A stretch of DNA of 64,000 bases from Nitrospirota bacterium (GTDB lineage: Bacteria; Nitrospirota; Thermodesulfovibrionia; Thermodesulfovibrionales; Dissulfurispiraceae), in contig JBFMHE010000005.1 of the NCBI GenBank assembly GCA_040752355.1, positions 1 to 64,000 on the forward strand, read 5' to 3'. Shown in pieces: positions 6,131 through 58,543 of the stretch (its first letter is position 1; each line of letters opens with the position of its first letter). The position numbers and the translations under genes were made by a program. The notes under the pieces were generated by a model, which saw nothing but the letters and a program-made list of their open reading frames with translations, was not told the origin of the DNA and searched no databases.

Positions 6131-6136
6131 TATAAT
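6131..6136 (+). promoter_or_regulatory. -10 box next to the start codon (leaderless mRNA likely)
   Basis: A perfect TATAAT is followed by only six bases (GCTTAT) before the ATG of the kinase, and no ribosome site is present. Transcription would begin at or within a base or two of the start codon. The -35 region is weak. Confidence 0.6.
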
Positions 6137-6142
6137 GCTTAT

Positions 6143-7585
6143 ATGCGCTTGAGTATTTTTTCTCGGATGATCGTCGGCTATATCGCTATCTTCTTGCTCG
6201 TCATGGCGGTGAGCATCTATGCCGTGATACAGCTCCGGCAGTTCAGCACAACCACTCATGATATCCTCGAGATCGATAACCGGCTCATCGATTACGAGAA
6301 GAGGCTCACCGATTCGCTGCTCTCCCAGGTGCGCTATGAACGCAAGTATCTCATCATCAAGGACCGCGCCCTTTACGACCAGTTCATCGCCGCGGCCGGC
6401 GACTTCACCCGCTCCATCGATGCGGCCCTCTCCCTTGGGGGCGACTTCCACAGGGAGGGGGTAGACCGCATACGGCGGCACCACGGACACTACGTAGCGC
6501 TCTTCGAGAAAGAGGCCGCACTGGTCCGGGGAGCGGTCTCTTATGAGCAGGCGTGGTACCGGCAGCAGAAGGAGCTGGCCATCACGGATGCCATGGAGGA
6601 GCTGAAGCGGCTGCGGGCCTCTTCCCAGCAGAATACCTACGAGCGCATCAGGCAGCTGGGCGATGCGGGCGTCCGGGCCCGCAGCGTGATGGGAGGGCTG
6701 GCGGTAGCCGCCCTGGTGCTCGGCGTCGCCATATCCGTGGTGATCACGAGGAGCATTACGCGGCCCATAGCCGTTATGATCGATAAAACGAGGGAGGTGG
6801 CGAACGGCGTGCTCAAGGGCGATCTCGCGCTCTCCTCGCCCCCGGAGATCGGCGAGCTCTCGACCTCGTTCAATGCCATGTGCAGGAAGCTGAGGGCGCT
6901 GGATAAGATGAAGTCCGACTTCTTTTCTACCATGTCCCATGAGCTGCGCACGCCGCTGACCTCCATACGGGAGGGTACGAGCCTCCTCCTCGAAGGCAAG
7001 GGCGGCGAGGCGACCGAGAAACAGCGGCGGCTCCTCACGATCATCTCCGAAGAGAGCAATCGGTTGATCGGTCTCGTCAACTCCCTTATGGACCTGTCGA
7101 AGATGGAGGCGGGCATGATGGCCTTCACCCTCACCGATACCGCCCTTGCGCCGCTGCTCCATAAAGCGGCGGCCGAGGCCGAGCTCCTCGCATCGGTCAA
7201 GAAGATCGCGCTCGACATCTCCTGCGCGCCCGACCTTCCGGCGGTCTGCATGGACGGGGAGCGCATACTCCAGGCCCTGCGCAATCTGATCGGCAACGCG
7301 ATCAAGTTTACGCCGGAGGGCGGCCGGGTCTCGGTTGCGGCGGCGCATGACGACAGAGGGGTGCGGGTGGCCGTTTCCGATACCGGTCCGGGCATCGGAA
7401 AAGAGTACCTGACGGTCGTCTTCGAGAAGTTCCAGCAGGTCCCCCTTGCCGACTCGTATAAGGTCAAAGGCACCGGATTGGGGCTCGCTATCGTCAACCA
7501 TATTATCACCGCTCACGGAGGAAGCGTATGGGCAGAGAGCGAGCCAGGACAGGGCAGCTCGTTCATTTTTGTATTGCCTGCATAG
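6143..7585 (+). CDS. membrane sensor histidine kinase (GlrK/QseE-like)
   Basis: 480 residues. A transmembrane helix (residues 8-29) precedes a periplasmic four-helix-like sensor. The second membrane helix is at about 190-210 and HAMP at about 210-265 (SITRPIAVMIDKTREVANG). The phosphoacceptor is in SHELRTPLTSI, and the ATPase domain shows NLIGNAIKFTP, DTGPGIG and GTGLGLAIVNHII. A lipoprotein gene overlaps its 3' end by 58 bp, and a sigma-54 response regulator follows. That is the gene order of enterobacterial glrK-qseG-glrR, which suggests an envelope-stress sensor. The order is seen; the function is inferred. Confidence 0.85.
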   Translation: MRLSIFSRMIVGYIAIFLLVMAVSIYAVIQLRQFSTTTHDILEIDNRLIDYEKRLTDSLLSQVRYERKYLIIKDRALYDQFIAAAGDFTRSIDAALSLGGDFHREGVDRIRRHHGHYVALFEKEAALVRGAVSYEQAWYRQQKELAITDAMEELKRLRASSQQNTYERIRQLGDAGVRARSVMGGLAVAALVLGVAISVVITRSITRPIAVMIDKTREVANGVLKGDLALSSPPEIGELSTSFNAMCRKLRALDKMKSDFFSTMSHELRTPLTSIREGTSLLLEGKGGEATEKQRRLLTIISEESNRLIGLVNSLMDLSKMEAGMMAFTLTDTALAPLLHKAAAEAELLASVKKIALDISCAPDLPAVCMDGERILQALRNLIGNAIKFTPEGGRVSVAAAHDDRGVRVAVSDTGPGIGKEYLTVVFEKFQQVPLADSYKVKGTGLGLAIVNHIITAHGGSVWAESEPGQGSSFIFVLPA

Positions 7586-11178: not shown

Positions 11179-11229
11179 TTATACTCAAAGAGAGTGCTGT
11201 GCCATCTCTTCAATAAGGAGGCAGAGTTT

Positions 11230-11550
11230 ATGAGAAAGGCGGACGCACGGAGAGCATTCCTGATGCTGGTACTCGCGGTCTTCCTCGCCACCGGCTGCGC
11301 AACACTGACCGGGAGGACGGCCGGGCAGACCATCGATGACTCGACAATCACCACGAAGATCAACGGGAAGATCATTCAGGACCCCCAGCTCTCGTACCTG
11401 AAGCTCGATGTCGATACCTTCCAGGGAGCTGTGACCCTCTCCGGGACGGTGCCGAGCAAAGCTGCGCAGGACAGGCTCGTCGAGATCGTGAAGAGCACCG
11501 AGGGCGTCAAGAGCGTGAAGACCAACCTGGTCATTCAGCCCCCGCAGTAG
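11230..11550 (+). CDS. BON-domain lipoprotein
   Basis: 106 residues. A signal segment ends in the lipobox FLATGC, so it is lipid-anchored. One BON domain follows (residues 38-104: DSTITTKINGKIIQDPQL, LKLDVDTFQGAVTLSGTVPS, VEIVKSTEGVKSVKTNLVI), as in OsmY-type periplasmic proteins thought to contact phospholipid. AAGGAGG is placed 8 nt before the ATG. Its promoter duplicates that of the PEP-CTERM gene, so it is a likely PrsR target. A terminator follows at 11607. Confidence 0.82.
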   Translation: MRKADARRAFLMLVLAVFLATGCATLTGRTAGQTIDDSTITTKINGKIIQDPQLSYLKLDVDTFQGAVTLSGTVPSKAAQDRLVEIVKSTEGVKSVKTNLVIQPPQ

Positions 11551-18732: not shown

Positions 18733-18738
18733 TATAAT
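18733..18738 (+). promoter_or_regulatory. -10 box next to the xseA start (leaderless mRNA likely)
   Basis: TATAAT is followed by seven bases and the ATG of xseA, with no ribosome site. This is the same arrangement as at 6131. Confidence 0.6.
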
Positions 18739-18745
18739 TACGTAC

Positions 18746-20071
18746 ATGGAATCTCCCGCGACGAACAGGACCGCCTACCGCCTGTACGAGCTGCAAGCGA
18801 TCATCAAGGCCGCTCTCGGCGACGCCTTTCCCGGGGCCTGCTGGGTGACGGCGGAGATCGCCGAATGCAAGAGCAACCAGCGCGGCCACTGCTATCTCGA
18901 GCTCGTCGAAAAGGAAGAGGATAAAATCATCGCGCAGGTCAAGGCGACGATCTGGGCCTACGACTACCGGAGGCTGAGCCAGAAGTTCAAGGCCGCAGCC
19001 GGGGAGCCGCTCAAGCCTGGCATGAGGCTCCTGCTCTTCGTCTCGGTATCGTTTCACGAGGTCTACGGGCTGAGCCTCAACGTCAAGGATATCGACCCCA
19101 CCTATACGCTCGGCGAAATGGCGCGCAAGAGAAAGGAGATCATCGAGCGGCTCAGACGGGAAGGCGTCATCGACGAGAACAAGAAGCGGCCGCTGCCCCT
19201 CGTTCCCCAGCATATCGCGGTCATATCGTCGCCGACCGCCGCGGGATACGGCGATTTCTTCAACCAGCTCGACGGCAACCTCTACGGGTACAAGCTCGTC
19301 CATATCCTCTTCCCCGCCGTGATGCAGGGCCAGGAGGCGGAGCTGTCCGTCACTGCCGCGCTGAAGAAGATCAGGCGGCTGCAGGACCGCTTCGATGTCG
19401 TGGTCATCATCAGGGGAGGGGGGTCCGCCATCGACCTCAGCTGCTTCGACAGCTATGACCTCGCCGCAGCGATCGCCCGTTTCCCCCTGCCGGTCATCAC
19501 CGGCATCGGCCATGAAAAGGACGACACGATCGCCGATATGGTCGCCCATACGAAGATGAAGACCCCCACCGCCGTAGCCGAATTCCTCCTGTCGGGCATC
19601 AGGAGCTTCGAAGAGGGTATCCTTTCCCTGCAGCACCGGCTTTCGCTCTCTGCCGAGCGGCTCCTGAAGGACGCCCGGTATGCGCTGAACGGTATTGCCC
19701 AGAAGCTCGTCGTCATCCCCGCCTGTCTCGCCGCGCCGCGGAACAGGCTTCTGCTCCTGGAGCGGGAGCTTCAGGGAAGGCTGCGGGAAGCGCTGCTGCG
19801 GCAGCACTCACGACTGGAGGTCTGCGCGCAGGCGGTGCGGCTCCTCGATCCCGCCAAGGTGCTCCGGCGGGGCTACAGCATCACGCGCTGCAACGGCGCC
19901 GTGGTCAAGGAGGCGTCACAGGTGAAGAAGGGGGCGGTGATCACCACCAGGCTGCATAACGGGACGGTCACCAGCATTGTCGGACAGACGAAGGAGGCGA
20001 AACAGCGTGAGCAAGAGCAGGCAACGTGCTTACTCCCAGGCTTTGAGCGAGCTGGAACGGATCGTCAGTGA
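18746..20071 (+). CDS. xseA: exodeoxyribonuclease VII large subunit
   Basis: 441 residues, normal length. The N-terminal OB-fold (YELQAIIKAALGDAFPGACW, ITAEIAECKSN-type) is followed by the catalytic region with VISSPTAAGYGDFF, DVVVIIRGGGSAIDL and PVITGIGHEKDDTIAD. A long helical arm and a C-terminal domain (VLRRGYSITRCNG) complete it. With XseB it degrades single-stranded DNA to oligonucleotides. xseB overlaps its end by 65 bp. Confidence 0.95.
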   Translation: MESPATNRTAYRLYELQAIIKAALGDAFPGACWVTAEIAECKSNQRGHCYLELVEKEEDKIIAQVKATIWAYDYRRLSQKFKAAAGEPLKPGMRLLLFVSVSFHEVYGLSLNVKDIDPTYTLGEMARKRKEIIERLRREGVIDENKKRPLPLVPQHIAVISSPTAAGYGDFFNQLDGNLYGYKLVHILFPAVMQGQEAELSVTAALKKIRRLQDRFDVVVIIRGGGSAIDLSCFDSYDLAAAIARFPLPVITGIGHEKDDTIADMVAHTKMKTPTAVAEFLLSGIRSFEEGILSLQHRLSLSAERLLKDARYALNGIAQKLVVIPACLAAPRNRLLLLERELQGRLREALLRQHSRLEVCAQAVRLLDPAKVLRRGYSITRCNGAVVKEASQVKKGAVITTRLHNGTVTSIVGQTKEAKQREQEQATCLLPGFERAGTDRQ

Positions 20072-20323: not shown

Positions 20324-20590
20324 CTAGAAGAGAAAGAGGCCGGCCCTGAATTTCCCGGCCAGCGGCATGCTCCACTGGACGACGGCGTTCAGGGGTGAGA
20401 ACCCGCCGCTGAGGCTCTCGAAGGCGAGGAACTGCCCGAACTCGAGGGGCGTCTCGGTAATGATGCCCAGGCCGCTGTTGCTCACATCGATGGCAAGGCA
20501 GGTATACCGCTTCTGCCCGCTTTCACCGTAGAAATAATAGCGCAGCTCGGCGTCGTAGGGCATCCGTTTTTCCCGCCTCGTCTCTTTCAT
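20324..20590 (-). CDS. PilZ-domain protein
   Basis: 88 residues, a single PilZ domain. KETRREKRMPYDAEL gives the c-di-GMP-binding basic cluster, DVSNSGLGI matches the D/N-x-S-x-x-G motif, and the fold ends with KFRAGLFLF. It is a probable c-di-GMP receptor for the GGDEF/EAL proteins elsewhere in the window. The start is at MKETRRE. On this strand TATTGT stands 6 nt before the ATG with TTGCAC 18 nt further up, so the mRNA may be leaderless. Confidence 0.8.
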   Translation of the reverse strand: MKETRREKRMPYDAELRYYFYGESGQKRYTCLAIDVSNSGLGIITETPLEFGQFLAFESLSGGFSPLNAVVQWSMPLAGKFRAGLFLF

Positions 20591-20642
20591 GGGAACACAA
20601 TACCATACGGTGCGAGCAAAGTGCAACGCGCGGCGTACGGTG

Positions 20643-24496: not shown

Positions 24497-24603
24497 AATG
24501 AGAGTGGCCACAATATTTTTGACGGCTTCAGAAACGATGCATGGTGCAGGGAAGAGATTGCCCGTAATAGCAGGCACAGCGGCGACAGTTGGCAGCCGCC
24601 TGC

Positions 24604-24631
24604 CGCCGAACGCCGAACGCCGAACGCAATG
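24604..24631 (+). repeat. heptamer repeat (CGCCGAA x3)
   Basis: Three perfect CGCCGAA units and a fourth partial one lie 15 bp before the start codon and directly before the ribosome site of the sigma-factor gene. Period 7 matches arrays at four other loci in this window. Confidence 0.7.
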
Positions 24632-24645
24632 AAGAGGAGGAGCCC

Positions 24646-26061
24646 TTGAAAGAACTACTGAGCATGTACGAGGAGAATTTTACCTGCCGGGATGAGGAGC
24701 TCACCGATGATTTCGCCGACGACTCCGTGCCCTCGCTGGAGGAGCGGGAGGAGCAATGCGAGAGCGCCTCTGCTTATGACGACGGTCTTCTCGATGTCTA
24801 CCTTAAAGAGATCAGCACGACCCCGCTGTTGAACAAGGACAAGGAGCGGCTGCTCGCGCAGCAGCTGGAAGAGACGAAGCTGCGGGTGTATGCGGTCATC
24901 TTCAGCGTGCCCTGCGCCCTCGCAAAGCTCGTTGAGCTCGGCACGATGGTCGAGAAAGGCGAGCTCCCCCTTGCAGCGGTGATGAAAGAGGATGAGGAGT
25001 GGTCCGAAAGGGAGCGCGCACAGCAGCGGAAGAAATTCATTCAGGGCATCAGGGCGCTGCGGGAGGCGCTGCAGCAGCGTACGGCGCGGAGCGCCGGCGA
25101 TGCGGTAATCGAGAAGGTCAGGGCATTGCACATGAACGACGAGGCGCTGAGCGTTTTTTCCCGGGAGCTGAAGGAGCTCGCCCTGCAGCTCAGGGAGGCG
25201 CAGGCCCGCTGGGATGGCATGGAGCAGCGGCAGCGGCGCACTGCCGAGGGCAGGCGGAGCAGGCAGCGCATTACCGCGCTCGAGGCGCGCATCGGCCTGA
25301 AGCTTCCCGCCTTTGATACGGCGCTGGCCCGCCTCGAGCGCGCCGAAGCGGACGTGGACGAGGCGAGGCGGCAGATCATCGAGCCGAATCTCCGCCTCGT
25401 CGTCAGCGTGGCGAAGCGCTACAGCGGCAAAGGATTGAGCCTCGAGGACCTCATCCAGGAGGGAAACCTCGGCCTCATGAAGGCCGCGGACCGGTTCGAC
25501 TACCGGAAGGGGTTCAAGTTCAGCACCTACGCCACGTGGTGGATCCGGCAGGCGATCGGCAGGGCGGTGTCGGACTATTCGAGGACCATACGCATACCGG
25601 TCCATATGATCGAGAACATGTACGCGGTGCACAAGATAATGAGCACCTATACCCAGGAGTTCGGGGTGAAGCCCGAGCCCGAAGAGATTGCGCGCAGGGC
25701 AGCGCTCCCGGTCGAGAGGGTCTTCGATGTCCTGAAGATATCCGACGAGCCGCTCTCCCTCGACGCCGCCGTCGGCGAGGATGACGCGCTGCTGAAGGAG
25801 TTCATCGAGGACACCTCCACCCCCTCGCCCTTCGACCGGGCGGTCCGCGAAGAGATGAAGCTGCATATCGACAGGATACTGTCGTCGCTCTCGACGAAAG
25901 AAGAGATGGTCATCAGGAAGCGCTTCGGCATCGGCTGCGGGCAGCCGCTCACCCTCGACGAGATAGGACAGGAGTTCGAGGTGACCCGGGAGCGCGTCAG
26001 ACAGCTCCAGGAGCGGGCGATGCGGAAGCTCCAGGCCCCGATGGGCGCCCTGTTGAGCTGA
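24646..26061 (+). CDS. sigma-70 family RNA polymerase sigma factor (group 2-like)
   Basis: 471 residues. Region 1.2 is at about 50-75 (LDVYLKEISTTPLLNKDKE) and region 2 at about 245-310 (NLRLVVSVAKRYSGKGL, DLIQEGNLGLMKAADRF, FSTYATWWIRQAI). Region 3 follows RTIRIPVHMIE, and the region 4 helix-turn-helix is LTLDEIGQEFEVTRERVRQ. A charged helical insert separates 1.2 and 2. The -10 reading helix (AVSDYSRTIRI) differs from housekeeping RpoD, and the gene has a sigma-54 site upstream, so an alternative group-2 factor is more likely than the primary sigma. TTG 24646 follows GAGGAGG by 5 nt; ATG 24664 is the alternative. Confidence 0.85.
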   Translation: MKELLSMYEENFTCRDEELTDDFADDSVPSLEEREEQCESASAYDDGLLDVYLKEISTTPLLNKDKERLLAQQLEETKLRVYAVIFSVPCALAKLVELGTMVEKGELPLAAVMKEDEEWSERERAQQRKKFIQGIRALREALQQRTARSAGDAVIEKVRALHMNDEALSVFSRELKELALQLREAQARWDGMEQRQRRTAEGRRSRQRITALEARIGLKLPAFDTALARLERAEADVDEARRQIIEPNLRLVVSVAKRYSGKGLSLEDLIQEGNLGLMKAADRFDYRKGFKFSTYATWWIRQAIGRAVSDYSRTIRIPVHMIENMYAVHKIMSTYTQEFGVKPEPEEIARRAALPVERVFDVLKISDEPLSLDAAVGEDDALLKEFIEDTSTPSPFDRAVREEMKLHIDRILSSLSTKEEMVIRKRFGIGCGQPLTLDEIGQEFEVTRERVRQLQERAMRKLQAPMGALLS

Positions 26062-26456: not shown

Positions 26457-26485
26457 GTGACCGCTGTTCCAAAACATGCTACCAT
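26457..26485 (+). promoter_or_regulatory. promoter placing the start at the ATG of the THUMP gene
   Basis: GTGACC (26457-26462), a 17-nt spacer and TACCAT (26480-26485) are followed by six bases and the ATG at 26492. No ribosome site is present, so a leaderless mRNA is likely. Confidence 0.45.
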
Positions 26486-26491
26486 GAGAGT

Positions 26492-27031
26492 ATGCATGAC
26501 TGGAACGTGGTCGTCAGCGTCAACGAGCACGGGTTCAAGCAGGCCTTCCGGGTGCTCGGCCCTCTCGGACGGCTGAGCAAGACCGCCTTCTATAACATAC
26601 TCGTCATGCAGGTGGACGATACGCGCCGCCTGCTCGACGGGCTCCGCAGGGTGCACGAGGAGGACCCGCCGTCACTCTCCTTCCTCTCCCGGATCGTACC
26701 GGTCAGCCGTACCTTCATGTTCCAATCCCCGGAAGAGTTCGAACGCTCTGCGCAGGAGGCCGTCCTTTCCTGGGCGCCGGCCATTGCGGGAAAGAGCTTC
26801 CATGTGAGGATGCACCGCCGCGGCTTCAAAGGCAGGCTCTCGAGCCTCGATGAAGAGCATCTCCTCGACGCGGCGCTCCTCGCCGCAGCCGAGCGGCTCG
26901 GGGCTCCTAGCCGGATCACCTTCGATGACCCCGACCTCATCATTGCCGTCGAGACCGTCGACCAGCGCGCCGGCCTCTCGCTCTGGACCCGGGATGAGCT
27001 GCGGCAGTATCCCTTCGTCAGGCTCGACTGA
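26492..27031 (+). CDS. THUMP-domain protein
   Basis: 179 residues. After an N-terminal region starting WNVVVSVNEHGFKQAFRVLG, the THUMP core spans about 50-165: IVPVSRTFMFQSPEEF, AGKSFHVRMHRRGFKGRL, DEEHLLDAALLAAAERLG, DDPDLIIAVETVDQRAGLSLW. THUMP domains bind RNA and are usually fused to a tRNA-modifying catalytic domain; none is present here. It may guide a partner enzyme or act as an RNA-binding adaptor. The -10 box is immediately upstream. Confidence 0.8.
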   Translation: MHDWNVVVSVNEHGFKQAFRVLGPLGRLSKTAFYNILVMQVDDTRRLLDGLRRVHEEDPPSLSFLSRIVPVSRTFMFQSPEEFERSAQEAVLSWAPAIAGKSFHVRMHRRGFKGRLSSLDEEHLLDAALLAAAERLGAPSRITFDDPDLIIAVETVDQRAGLSLWTRDELRQYPFVRLD

Positions 27032-27188
27032 CGGGGGGCCCGCCTGCCTTTTCGAGCGGCGCTGACCGGCATTGTCCCTGCCGTATATCCATGATAGACT
27101 CTAGGTAAGTTGTCGTGCCGCTGCAGTATCGTCATTCCGCACAGCCGACTATTATTAACTCTTGCCTGAAAACCATGAGGAGGAGCTG

Positions 27189-28580
27189 ATGGGCACTCAA
27201 CGCCGTAAGCGCAGGGGAGAAGAAGCTCTCCCATTTCCCGTACCGGTCACCAGCGTGCTCGAGACCGACCCCGCTCGGCCGCTCCAGTCGGCGGAGCAGC
27301 GAAGGGTCGAGGCGATTACCCGGGAGCTGGCCGGGACCTGCGGGGAGCGACTGGGCATGACCAGGCGGGAGTTCCTCAAAACGAGCTGCGGCATGGCGGC
27401 AGCATTCATGGCGCTGAACTCGGTATTCGGCGACTTCTTTGCCGTTCATCCCGCAGAGGCCGCTGACCCCGCATTCGCCCAGGCGAGAAGGGACGCCCTT
27501 TCCGGCCAGTTCATCTTCGATGTCCAGACCCACTTTGTCAGCCCGCGGTACGGTTCCGAAGCTATCCTGAAGCTCAGGGAGATGGCGAAAAAATGGAATC
27601 CTCAGCTCAAGGGCGAACAGGAGAGCCTCGAGAAGATCCGTTTCGATAATTATTACCGGGAGATCTACGAGCTCAGCGACACGAAGATAGCGCTCCTCAC
27701 GAGCGCTCCCAACGACGACCCGAAGAAGTGGTTCATCCATAACGACGAGATAGCGAAGACGCGCGAGGCGGTGAACAGGAAAGCGGGAAGGAAGATCATG
27801 TACAGCCATGCCGTGTTCACGCCGGGGCATCCGGAGTGGAGGGAGGCCCTGGACCGGGCTATTGTCGAGTACCAGCCTGACGCCTGGAAGGGCTACACCA
27901 CCGGCGCGCCCTTCGACAGCTCCCGGTATCCCTGGAGGATGGATGACGAGAAGCTCGTCTACCCCGCTTATGAGAGGATGGCGAAGGCGGGCATCACCAA
28001 CGTCTGTATCCATAAGGGGCTGCTGCCCCCGGGGTACAAGAAGACGATGGGGAAGACCTGGCGGTACGGCTCGGTCGCCGATGTGGGGAAGGCGGCGAAG
28101 GACTGGCCGCAGCTGAACTTCATCATCTATCACGCGGGCATCATGAAAGGAGAGCCGCCGTCCAGGGATGACGTAAAGAATTTCGAGAGGACGGGGCATA
28201 TCCCGTGGGTGAGCGAGCTGGCGGCCATACCCCAGCAGTACGGGGTGAAGAACGTCTACGGCGAGATAGGCAACACCTTTGCGCTTACCGCGGTCAGCAG
28301 CCCCCGCTATTGTGCGGGAATACTGGGCACCCTGATCAAAGGGCTCGGCGCGGACCATGTGCTCTGGGGCACGGACTCGGTGTTCTACGGCTCGCCCCAG
28401 TGGCAGATCGAGGCCTTCCGCCGCATCGAGATCCCTGCCGACCTGCAGAAAAAGTTCGGTTATACGCCGCTCGGTCCTGCCGACGGCGAAGTGAAGCAGC
28501 TGATCTTCGCCGGCAACGGGGCGCGGCTCTACAAGGTGAAGACCGAGGCAGGGCCCGACCTGGTGAAGGCGCAGCGATAA
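27189..28580 (+). CDS. Tat-exported amidohydrolase-family protein
   Basis: 463 residues. A 55-residue N-terminal extension leads into a twin-arginine-like signal (MTRREFLKTSCGMAAAFMAL). The TIM-barrel amidohydrolase_2 fold follows, with IFDVQTHFVSP near the first strand, NFIIYHAG in the middle and LWGTDSVFYGSP carrying the late Asp. The usual HxH of the first strand appears as QTH, so metal ligation may differ. GGAGGAG precedes the ATG at 27189. The substrate is unknown. Export by Tat would fit an enzyme folded with its metal. A GNRA-loop hairpin follows its stop. Confidence 0.75.
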   Translation: MGTQRRKRRGEEALPFPVPVTSVLETDPARPLQSAEQRRVEAITRELAGTCGERLGMTRREFLKTSCGMAAAFMALNSVFGDFFAVHPAEAADPAFAQARRDALSGQFIFDVQTHFVSPRYGSEAILKLREMAKKWNPQLKGEQESLEKIRFDNYYREIYELSDTKIALLTSAPNDDPKKWFIHNDEIAKTREAVNRKAGRKIMYSHAVFTPGHPEWREALDRAIVEYQPDAWKGYTTGAPFDSSRYPWRMDDEKLVYPAYERMAKAGITNVCIHKGLLPPGYKKTMGKTWRYGSVADVGKAAKDWPQLNFIIYHAGIMKGEPPSRDDVKNFERTGHIPWVSELAAIPQQYGVKNVYGEIGNTFALTAVSSPRYCAGILGTLIKGLGADHVLWGTDSVFYGSPQWQIEAFRRIEIPADLQKKFGYTPLGPADGEVKQLIFAGNGARLYKVKTEAGPDLVKAQR

Positions 28581-56668: not shown

Positions 56669-56681
56669 GTCTCATCCTATG

Positions 56682-56710
56682 AGGACAGGCTGCGCTCTTA
56701 CGTCTATTAT
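56682..56710 (+). promoter_or_regulatory. promoter next to the JAMM gene start
   Basis: AGGACA (56682-56687), a 17-nt spacer and TATTAT (56705-56710) stand 10 nt before the ATG at 56721. No ribosome site is seen, so the leader would be only a few bases. Confidence 0.45.
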
Positions 56711-56720
56711 TCAGGCTATT

Positions 56721-57122
56721 ATGGATCGGTTGATAATTCCCCGGCATATTTTCGACGGCATGGTCGCCCACTGCAGGGCGGGGCTGCCGGATGAGGCGTG
56801 CGGCATTCTCGCGGGTACGGGAAGTGAAGTCGCCGTACTCTATACGATGACCAATGCCGACCCCTCGCCGGTGAGCTACCTGATGGAGCCGGGGGAGCAG
56901 CTCACCGCATTCCGGGATATGCGGGAAAAGGGTATGCAGATGCTCGCCGTTTTCCATTCCCACCCTCAATCGCCGGCCTACCCCTCGGCAAAAGACCAGA
57001 GCCTCGCCTTCTACGAGGACTCCCTCTATGTCATCGTGGGCCTGGCTGAAGGAGAGCCGGTGGTGAAGGCCTTTTCCCTGCGCGGCGGCGAGGTGGCCGA
57101 GACCCCCCTGGTCGTCAGGTAG
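56721..57122 (+). CDS. JAMM/Mov34 (M67) metalloprotease, Mec/HcyD-like
   Basis: 133 residues. The zinc motif is complete: Glu in PDEACGILAG, then HSHPQSPAYPSAKD (H-x-H-x7-S-x2-D). Bacterial relatives (Mec, HcyD) trim residues or release an amino acid from the C-terminus of ThiS/MoaD-type carriers. The ThiS-like protein nearby ends GGSSV and needs exactly such trimming. The gene sits between the E1-like gene and thrC, with its own promoter. Confidence 0.85.
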   Translation: MDRLIIPRHIFDGMVAHCRAGLPDEACGILAGTGSEVAVLYTMTNADPSPVSYLMEPGEQLTAFRDMREKGMQMLAVFHSHPQSPAYPSAKDQSLAFYEDSLYVIVGLAEGEPVVKAFSLRGGEVAETPLVVR

Positions 57123-57304: not shown

Positions 57305-58543
57305 ATGGGGTATGTACGCGGTCTTAAATGCAGGGAGTGCGGCAGGGAGTACCCGGTCGATCCCATATATGTGTGCGAGTTCTGCTTCGGTCCTTTGGAG
57401 GTCAGCTACGACTATGCGGCGATAAAGAGGGTGTTGACGAGAGAGGCTATCGAGGAGCGGGAAACGAATCTCTGGCGCTATAAAGAGCTGCTTCCCATAG
57501 ACGGAGAGCCCCGGGCAGGCCTGAAGTCGGGATTCACTCCCCTGGTCAAGGCCGATAATCTCGGACGCGAGCTCGGCGTCAAGGAGCTCTACATAAAAGA
57601 CGATACCGTCGTCCATCCGACGTTGTCCTTTAAAGACAGGGTCGTGGCAGTGGCGCTGACCAAGGCAAAGGAGTTCGGGTTCGATACGGTCGCCTGCGCC
57701 TCGACGGGCAATCTCGCGCACTCGGTCTCTGCCCACGGCGCGAAGGCGGGGTTCAAGCGTTTTGTCTTCATCCCCGCCACGCTCGAGCCGAGCAAGATCG
57801 TGGCGTCGCTCGTCTACGAGCCGAACCTCGTCGCGGTCGACGGCAACTACGATGAGGTGAACAGGCTCTGCAGCGAGATCGCGAACAAGTACCGCTGGGC
57901 CTTCGTCAACATCAACATACGGCCCTTTTACGCAGAAGGTTCGAAGACGCAGGGCTTCGAGATCGTGGAGCAGCTGGGCTGGAGGGTCCCTGATACGGTC
58001 GTCGTGCCGTGCGCCAGCGGCTCGCTGCTGACGAAGATATGGAAATCTTTCAAGGAGCTCAAGGAGGTGGGGATCGTAGGGGAAGTGGGGACGAAGGTCT
58101 TTGCCGCCCAGGCGACAGGCTGCTCGCCGATCACGACCGCCATAAAGCAGGGCGCCGATGTCGTCAAACCGGTAAAGCCCGATACCGTGGCAAAGTCCCT
58201 CGCCATCGGCAATCCCGCCGACGGTTTTTATGCGAGCCAGATCGTGAAGGAGACGGGCGGGGGCGGCGAGGATGTTTCGGACCGCGAGATCATCGAGGCG
58301 ATAAAGCTGCTCGCGCGCACCGAGGGTATCTTTGCCGAGACCGCGGGCGGGGTTACCGTCGCCGCGGCGCGGAAGCTGATCGAGCAGGGAAAGATCGACA
58401 GGAACGGAACGACGGTCATCTGCGTCACCGGCAACGGGCTGAAGACGCAGGAGGCCCTTACCGGCCATACGGCGGCGGTCCATCACATAAAACCGAATTT
58501 AGGCGCCTTCGAAGAGGTGCTGGAAAAGATAAGTAAGAAGTAA
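57305..58543 (+). CDS. thrC: threonine synthase
   Basis: 412 residues. An N-terminal zinc-ribbon-like CRECGREYPVDPIYVCEFCF precedes the PLP fold. The PLP Lys is in HPTLSFKDRVVAVAL, with ASTGNLAHSVSAHGAKAG and the phosphate-binding GVTVAAARKL region. It turns O-phosphohomoserine into threonine. The next gene encodes the ThiS-like carrier, so the enzyme or its substrate may also serve sulfur transfer, but the sequence looks like ordinary ThrC. GAGGAGG precedes the ATG. Confidence 0.93.
   Translation: MGYVRGLKCRECGREYPVDPIYVCEFCFGPLEVSYDYAAIKRVLTREAIEERETNLWRYKELLPIDGEPRAGLKSGFTPLVKADNLGRELGVKELYIKDDTVVHPTLSFKDRVVAVALTKAKEFGFDTVACASTGNLAHSVSAHGAKAGFKRFVFIPATLEPSKIVASLVYEPNLVAVDGNYDEVNRLCSEIANKYRWAFVNINIRPFYAEGSKTQGFEIVEQLGWRVPDTVVVPCASGSLLTKIWKSFKELKEVGIVGEVGTKVFAAQATGCSPITTAIKQGADVVKPVKPDTVAKSLAIGNPADGFYASQIVKETGGGGEDVSDREIIEAIKLLARTEGIFAETAGGVTVAAARKLIEQGKIDRNGTTVICVTGNGLKTQEALTGHTAAVHHIKPNLGAFEEVLEKISKK

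Follow-up and report, generated by a model that had tools for sequence, protein, structure and literature searches.

Start-adjacent -10 boxes point to a minority class of leaderless or nearly leaderless genes in a Nitrospirota bacterium

In the genome of a Nitrospirota bacterium, -10-like hexamers are concentrated 5-8 nt ahead of start codons that have no Shine-Dalgarno (SD) site. A minority class of leaderless or nearly leaderless genes, predicted to comprise approximately 4-6% of all genes, is well supported because the spacing peak occurs at SD-less starts and the boxes are enriched in -35 and TGn elements. We consider it highly probable that these boxes belong to sigma-70 promoters whose -10 box stands 5-8 nt from the start codon and that they give rise to leaderless mRNA. 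According to this explanation, a housekeeping-type (sigma-70) promoter would carry its -10 box 5-8 nt ahead of the start codon, and RNA polymerase would initiate at, or no more than approximately 3 nt from, the first base of that codon. The resulting mRNA would have no leader and no space for an SD site, and its 5'-terminal AUG would be bound directly, probably by a 70S ribosome or by a 30S subunit preloaded with initiator tRNA. Such initiation would represent a minority second mode alongside SD-led starts, used by that 4-6% of genes and by approximately one fifth of the SD-less genes at the head of a transcription unit.

Materials and Methods

The window is the whole stretch of DNA that was analysed, bases 1-64000 of one contig (C5) of a 3.57 Mb genome in 44 contigs. 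Gene-level counts were taken from 1.24 Mb, that is, the window and 1.18 Mb from the rest of the same genome, in which 1047 genes were called by a coding-only model that is blind to upstream signals. Hexamers in this 1.24 Mb were tallied by their distance from the called start. The spacing test covered 1040 of the genes, and a gene heading a transcription unit is termed a head. The -10 weight matrix, which was fixed and untrained here, and the SD rule were entered from general knowledge, and the expected count at N5-N8 (Nx denotes a spacer of x nt between box and start codon) is the baseline from the other spacers in the same gene set. The start-call errors of the coding-only model, at 11194 and 27162, were left in the genome-wide counts. 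Because no 16S rRNA gene was found in the assembly, the standard anti-SD sequence was assumed; the anti-SD described for the class Thermodesulfovibrionia is ACCUCCUUU (PMC10783764).

For the promoter marks, 73 of 423 SD-less genes were picked on the hexamer alone, and the -35 and TGn elements were not used in the choice. The xseA comparison comprised 14 distinct Nitrospirota relatives: the identical sequences L071 and L087 were counted once, L081-L084 were left out as second pieces of xseA genes already counted, and for L071 and L079 the start was identified by visual inspection of the sequence. The histidine kinase comparison used nine of 30 fetched loci, our own included, that aligned over the full length with at least 52% identity, and the PilZ comparison used nine of 30, again with our own. 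Five loci were compared for the THUMP-like gene, one of which (L100) lacks its 5' end, and 29 relatives were fetched for the JAMM gene out of 47 genomes with a match. The upstream regions of the histidine kinase and THUMP-like loci were judged by eye.

Results

The earlier note had singled out five boxes directly ahead of start codons in the window, and on direct reading all five are present with the claimed spacers (Table 1). The five starts had also been described as lacking a ribosome site, in contrast with most other genes. None has an SD match of at least 4 nt at a usable distance, with the caveats of a weak GAGAG just upstream of 26492 and a CAGG upstream of 56721, and the contrast holds because 34 of the 56 model-called starts in the window carry an SD match. 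The -10 spacing expected if transcription begins at the start codon is found at the histidine kinase, xseA, PilZ and THUMP-like genes, and the JAMM gene, at N10, lies outside the leaderless peak. A two-box sigma-70 scan requiring at least 9 of 12 matches returned no promoter at the first four genes and one at the JAMM gene. The histidine kinase and xseA genes would depend on a strong -10 box, and the PilZ (TGG) and THUMP-like (TGC) genes on an extended -10.

Table 1. Start-adjacent boxes and the genes behind them, in window coordinates.
Feature	Position	Strand	Remarks
-10 box TATAAT	6131-6136	+	N6 before ATG 6143 of HAMP histidine kinase gene
Histidine kinase gene, proposed leaderless	6143-7585	+	Pfam HAMP, HisKA, HATPase_c
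-10 box TATAAT	18733-18738	+	N7 before ATG 18746 of xseA
xseA, exodeoxyribonuclease VII large subunit, proposed leaderless	18746-20071	+	NCBIfam TIGR00237
PilZ-domain gene, 88 aa, proposed leaderless	20324-20590	-	Pfam PilZ
-10 box TATTGT, TGG in front (extended -10)	20597-20602	-	N6 before ATG at 20590
-10 box TACCAT, TGC in front	26480-26485	+	N6 before ATG 26492
THUMP-like gene, possibly leaderless	26492-27031	+	Pfam THUMP match under cut-off
Promoter-like AGGACA-N17-TATTAT (TATTAT 56705-56710)	56682-56710	+	N10 before ATG 56721
Prok-JAB (JAMM) gene	56721-57122	+	Pfam Prok-JAB E 2.7e-23; start supported by relatives

A tally of SD-less starts preceded by a box, which the earlier note had proposed as a check, places the peak of -10-like hexamers at N5-N8 in the 1.24 Mb. 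Ahead of ATGs at gene 5' ends, TATAAT occurs 3, 7, 5 and 2 times at spacers of 5, 6, 7 and 8 nt and 0-4 times (mean approximately 1) at the remaining spacers up to 49; for TAnnAT the counts before the same ATGs are 9, 21, 17 and 16, compared with 1-15 (mean approximately 7) at the remaining spacers up to 49. The peak drops within a few nucleotides to either side. When the genes are separated by SD status and position, SD-less heads have 58 boxes at N5-N8 against 12.8 expected (n = 227), and SD-less genes close to a same-strand gene have 19 against 6.7 (n = 192). The corresponding numbers are 8 against 18.9 for SD-led heads (n = 308) and 3 against 8.1 for SD-led genes close to a same-strand gene (n = 313); the shortfall is in part inevitable, since the SD site occupies those positions. 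All 1040 genes together have 88 boxes against 46.5 expected, an excess of 4.0%, and the excess in both SD-less groups amounts to approximately 57 genes, or 5.5%. A lower-threshold version of the test gave the same picture. The genome as a whole contains 126 copies of TATAAT-N5..8-ATG and 65 of TATAAT-N13..16-ATG (two-sided binomial p 1.2e-5); these word counts take every ATG, whether a start or not, and their signal is diluted in A+T-rich genomes. Since TATAAT is a promoter word in its own right, a reversed-pattern control was judged too lenient and gave way to the N13-N16 control. A free 6-mer EM fit was also set aside: it converged on TATAAT only at N4-N7 and N5-N8, but its share of 12.8% at N5-N8 is no measure of the class because 11-16% of genes were assigned to some motif in all ten of the 4-nt windows.

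The boxes before SD-less starts also have other marks of a promoter. A -35 element (at least 4 of 6 matches) stands 15-18 nt from the box in 41% of the 73 SD-less boxed genes, and TGn precedes the box in 36%. At the wrong spacings of 20-23, 25-28, 30-33 and 35-38 nt, the -35 score in the same genes falls to 14%, 10%, 10% and 22%. Boxes before internal ATG or GTG codons (n = 161) have TGn in 3.7% and a -35 in 8.1%, and boxes within 60 nt downstream of a stop codon (n = 427) in 9.8% and 16.4%; the positive control, boxes of SD-led heads (n = 129), gave 23% and 31%. The start-adjacent boxes are therefore enriched over the controls in the manner of working sigma-70 promoters, which they look like. 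Spacers of 35-38 nt also have an elevated -35-like score (22%, compared with 10-14% at 20-33).

The strongest case of the five for a leaderless or near-leaderless gene is xseA, whose product passes the TIGR00237 cut-off of 180 with 354.9 bits (E 5.8e-106). TATAAT lies at N5-N12 of the likely start in 10 of the 14 Nitrospirota relatives, and at N5-N8 in five of them. The spacer is N5 in L070 and in L077 (counted to the second of two ATGs) and N6 in L072 (with an extra ATG at N3), L074 (with a GTG start) and L088; it is N9 in L085 and L086, which are nearly identical in that region, N11 in L071 and L073, and N12 in L079. Because the spacer of 9-12 nt in these last five relatives would leave a leader of a few nucleotides, strict leaderlessness does not appear to be conserved. 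Four of the 14 lack a near box: L078 has a TATAAT farther upstream with AGGAG in between, and no near TATAAT box was found in L075, L076 or L080. Of the 11 XseA relatives with a named source, the top four are from Nitrospirota (one of them labelled Thermodesulfovibrionales, the order in which we tentatively place the window) and the remaining seven from Bacteroidota, and none of these seven has a TATAAT box at xseA.

The histidine kinase gene is likely to be leaderless. The model had placed its start at 6167, which was dropped for 6143 because the starts of all eight relatives favour the latter: a start codon lies at residue 1 in five and one codon earlier in three. Both candidates, 6143 and 6167, lack an SD site. 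The box is kept in two of the eight relatives (L132 and L133, which share the same upstream sequence) as TATACT-N6-ATG, with the ATG one codon before aligned residue 1. An SD-like GAGGGAGGGA lies upstream in L137, and the five other relatives have no near box, some of them with brief SD-like motifs (AGGT in L138, for example). The PilZ gene (E 2.2e-6, 28.3 bits, cut-off 22.5) is likewise likely to be leaderless. Its nearest relative (L162) reads TTGACA-N17-TATTTT-N7-ATG, and a paralogue in our own genome (L187) reads TGTAAT-N5-ATG. The box is absent from the other six compared loci: four encode proteins extended at the N-terminus and carry an SD-like run of purines, and the remaining two are parts of larger proteins.

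For the THUMP-like gene, a leaderless message is possible. A GTGACC (26457-26462) lies 17 nt upstream of its TACCAT box, and the box is not conserved: in none of the three relatives with a readable 5' end (L097, L098 and L099) does it stand at the start, where SD-like purine runs are found instead. The JAMM gene probably has a leader of approximately 3-4 nt rather than being strictly leaderless, which follows from a box that lies 10 nt from a start supported by relatives. When 30 nt were searched each way, the nearest start codon lay no more than 6 nt from the position matching 56721 in 26 of the 29 relatives. The upstream ATG at 56679 (TAGTCT-N6) was rejected as the start, with an in-frame stop after the matching position in 20 of the 29. 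TANNNT occurs at a spacer of 4-9 nt in two of the 29 relatives (L105 at N6, L110 at N8) and at N10 in three more (L104, L115 and L129), and a 4-nt word search gave a loose SD match in 12 of the 29. The leaderless set of the earlier note thus fits xseA, the histidine kinase and PilZ; its THUMP-like member has a box that is not conserved, and the N10 of its JAMM member points to a short leader. As for the gene names in that set, xseA stands, and the THUMP label falls short, with a score against PF02926 of 15.1 bits (E 0.032) below the cut-off of 20.6.

Two look-alike starts on the forward strand, neither of which belonged to that set, are probably not leaderless. Downstream of the GTG at 11194 (box TATACT) lies a better ATG at 11230 behind AAGGAGG, in a gene whose product matches OsmY with a score under the family cut-off. 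The amidohydrolase gene with a TTG at 27162 (TATTAT-N6-TTG) more likely starts at the ATG at 27189, which follows GAGGAGGAG. Both boxes probably drive ordinary leadered messages.

Counts of TATAAT-N5..8-ATG and its N13..16 counterpart cover 295 genomes from the phylum, 178 of which were summed. Of the 100 genomes of the order, 91 have more N5..8 than N13..16 matches (21452 vs 17594 in sum), as do 59 of the 78 genomes of family f27 (2090 vs 1685 in sum); in single genomes the excess reaches p<0.01 in 39 of the 100 and three of the 78. The top ratios in the order are all above threefold (G174, 127 vs 35; G152, 61 vs 18; G130, 75 vs 24) and exceed that of our own genome (126 vs 65). The gene-by-gene spacing test was run on four genomes, our own and three others, and the leaderless-type signal is clear in two of the others and weak in the third. 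Their SD-less heads have 18 boxes against 2.3 expected in G004 (n = 78), 33 against 3.8 in G130 (n = 91) and 13 against 3.7 in G140 (n = 142), and the excess over all genes is 1.9% of 375, 9.2% of 505 and 1.4% of 461, respectively.

Discussion

The position of the boxes, the absence of SD sites, the spacing peak, the enrichment of -35 and TGn elements and the conservation at xseA are direct observations. From the sequence we infer where transcription begins at these genes and how they are translated. The usual distance from a -10 box to the transcription start is 7 nt, and with a peak at N6-N7 the start site would therefore coincide with the A of the ATG or adjoin it. That peak (21 and 17 occurrences of TAnnAT) speaks against the possibility that the messages have very short leaders of 1-6 nt and form a short-leader class, for which the spacers of N9, N9, N11, N11 and N12 in five xseA relatives and the N10 of the JAMM gene, with its -35-like hexamer at 17 nt, can be cited. 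We regard such leaders as a possible but doubtful general account, one that overlaps the leaderless explanation, so that the likelihoods of the two should not be added.

It is improbable that the boxes are promoters of messages with normal leaders, translated from a downstream in-frame codon led by an SD site, so that the starts have been wrongly placed. This is likely what occurs at 11194 and 27162, but the first 60 nt of xseA contain no alternative start codon, and the alignments with its closest relatives, like those of the PilZ protein with L162 and L187, begin at residue 1; in the histidine kinase, the SD-less starts and the agreement of all eight relatives within one codon argue in the same direction. 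Still more improbable is that the boxes are chance A+T-rich hexamers before SD-less starts that are merely A+T-rich. Approximately 13 of the 58 sites at SD-less heads are expected from background, and TACCAT and TATTGT are weak boxes. However, background of this kind does not agree with a sharp peak a few nucleotides wide or with -35 and TGn frequencies above both the internal and the after-stop controls. We therefore retain sigma-70 promoters placed against the start codon as the best explanation, although the empty two-box scan at four of the genes, the elevated -35 score at spacers 35-38 and the uneven conservation of the boxes count against it. The interpretation of the earlier note, as a minority leaderless or near-leaderless class, appears mostly right and is partly supported.

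If this explanation is correct, a known start mechanism would be extended to a phylum for which open-access word searches gave no report, and gene callers that expect an SD site may misplace leaderless starts. The conserved xseA promoter offers one gene for testing strict leaderlessness and its use. We suggest, tentatively and with considerable doubt, that leaderless or near-leaderless initiation is a standing second mode in Thermodesulfovibrionales (approximately 9% of genes in G130) and that several of its families retain it at particular genes, xseA among them. Retention of this kind would suggest a regulatory role, for example translation that continues while SD-led initiation is limited.

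The leaderless transcriptome of Mycobacterium tuberculosis reportedly represents a far larger share of genes than the class described here. Leaderless and SD-led mRNAs likewise occur in one cell in that species (PMC3898074), where the 5' ends were mapped experimentally, whereas our claim is read from the genome. Leaderless mRNA itself has long been known in other bacteria, and the new element would be its occurrence in Nitrospirota; word searches of the open-access literature found no report of leaderless genes in Nitrospirae, Nitrospirota, Thermodesulfovibrio or Leptospirillum. The TA-led leaderless genes of Zheng et al. (2011; PMC3160421), described in 207 of 953 bacterial genomes, share with our case a TANNNT approximately 12 bp before the start, the absence of an SD site and the status of a minority class. 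The main text of that paper does not name Nitrospira or Thermodesulfovibrio and its group list does not name Nitrospirae, although its row "Other Bacteria" could include them. In Deinococcus-Thermus, a -10 box that precedes the ORF by a few bp has been shown to drive leaderless mRNA, and a -35 element raises the output of such promoters (Zhong et al., 2025; PMC12340547). There the class comprises approximately 30% of ORFs, compared with our approximately 4-6% of genes, and the evidence is experimental, compared with sequence in our case; that study scanned the whole bacterial domain, and its main text has no mention of "Nitrospir". Another account puts the bacterial species with predicted leaderless transcription at 21.6% and presents a gene finder that uses several upstream models (PMC9581028). 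A survey of SD-less genes cautions that an A+T bias ahead of starts may arise in other ways, for example through S1 binding (PMC5397173).

Two other genes of the window are recorded here as minor observations. A primary-type sigma-70 factor with Pfam regions 1.2, 2, 3 and 4 is encoded at 24589-26058 (+), shortly upstream of the THUMP-like gene. In a PLP-dependent enzyme encoded at 57305-58540 (+), the N-terminal residues 8-32 (25 residues) match Pfam NinF, a phage-named family.
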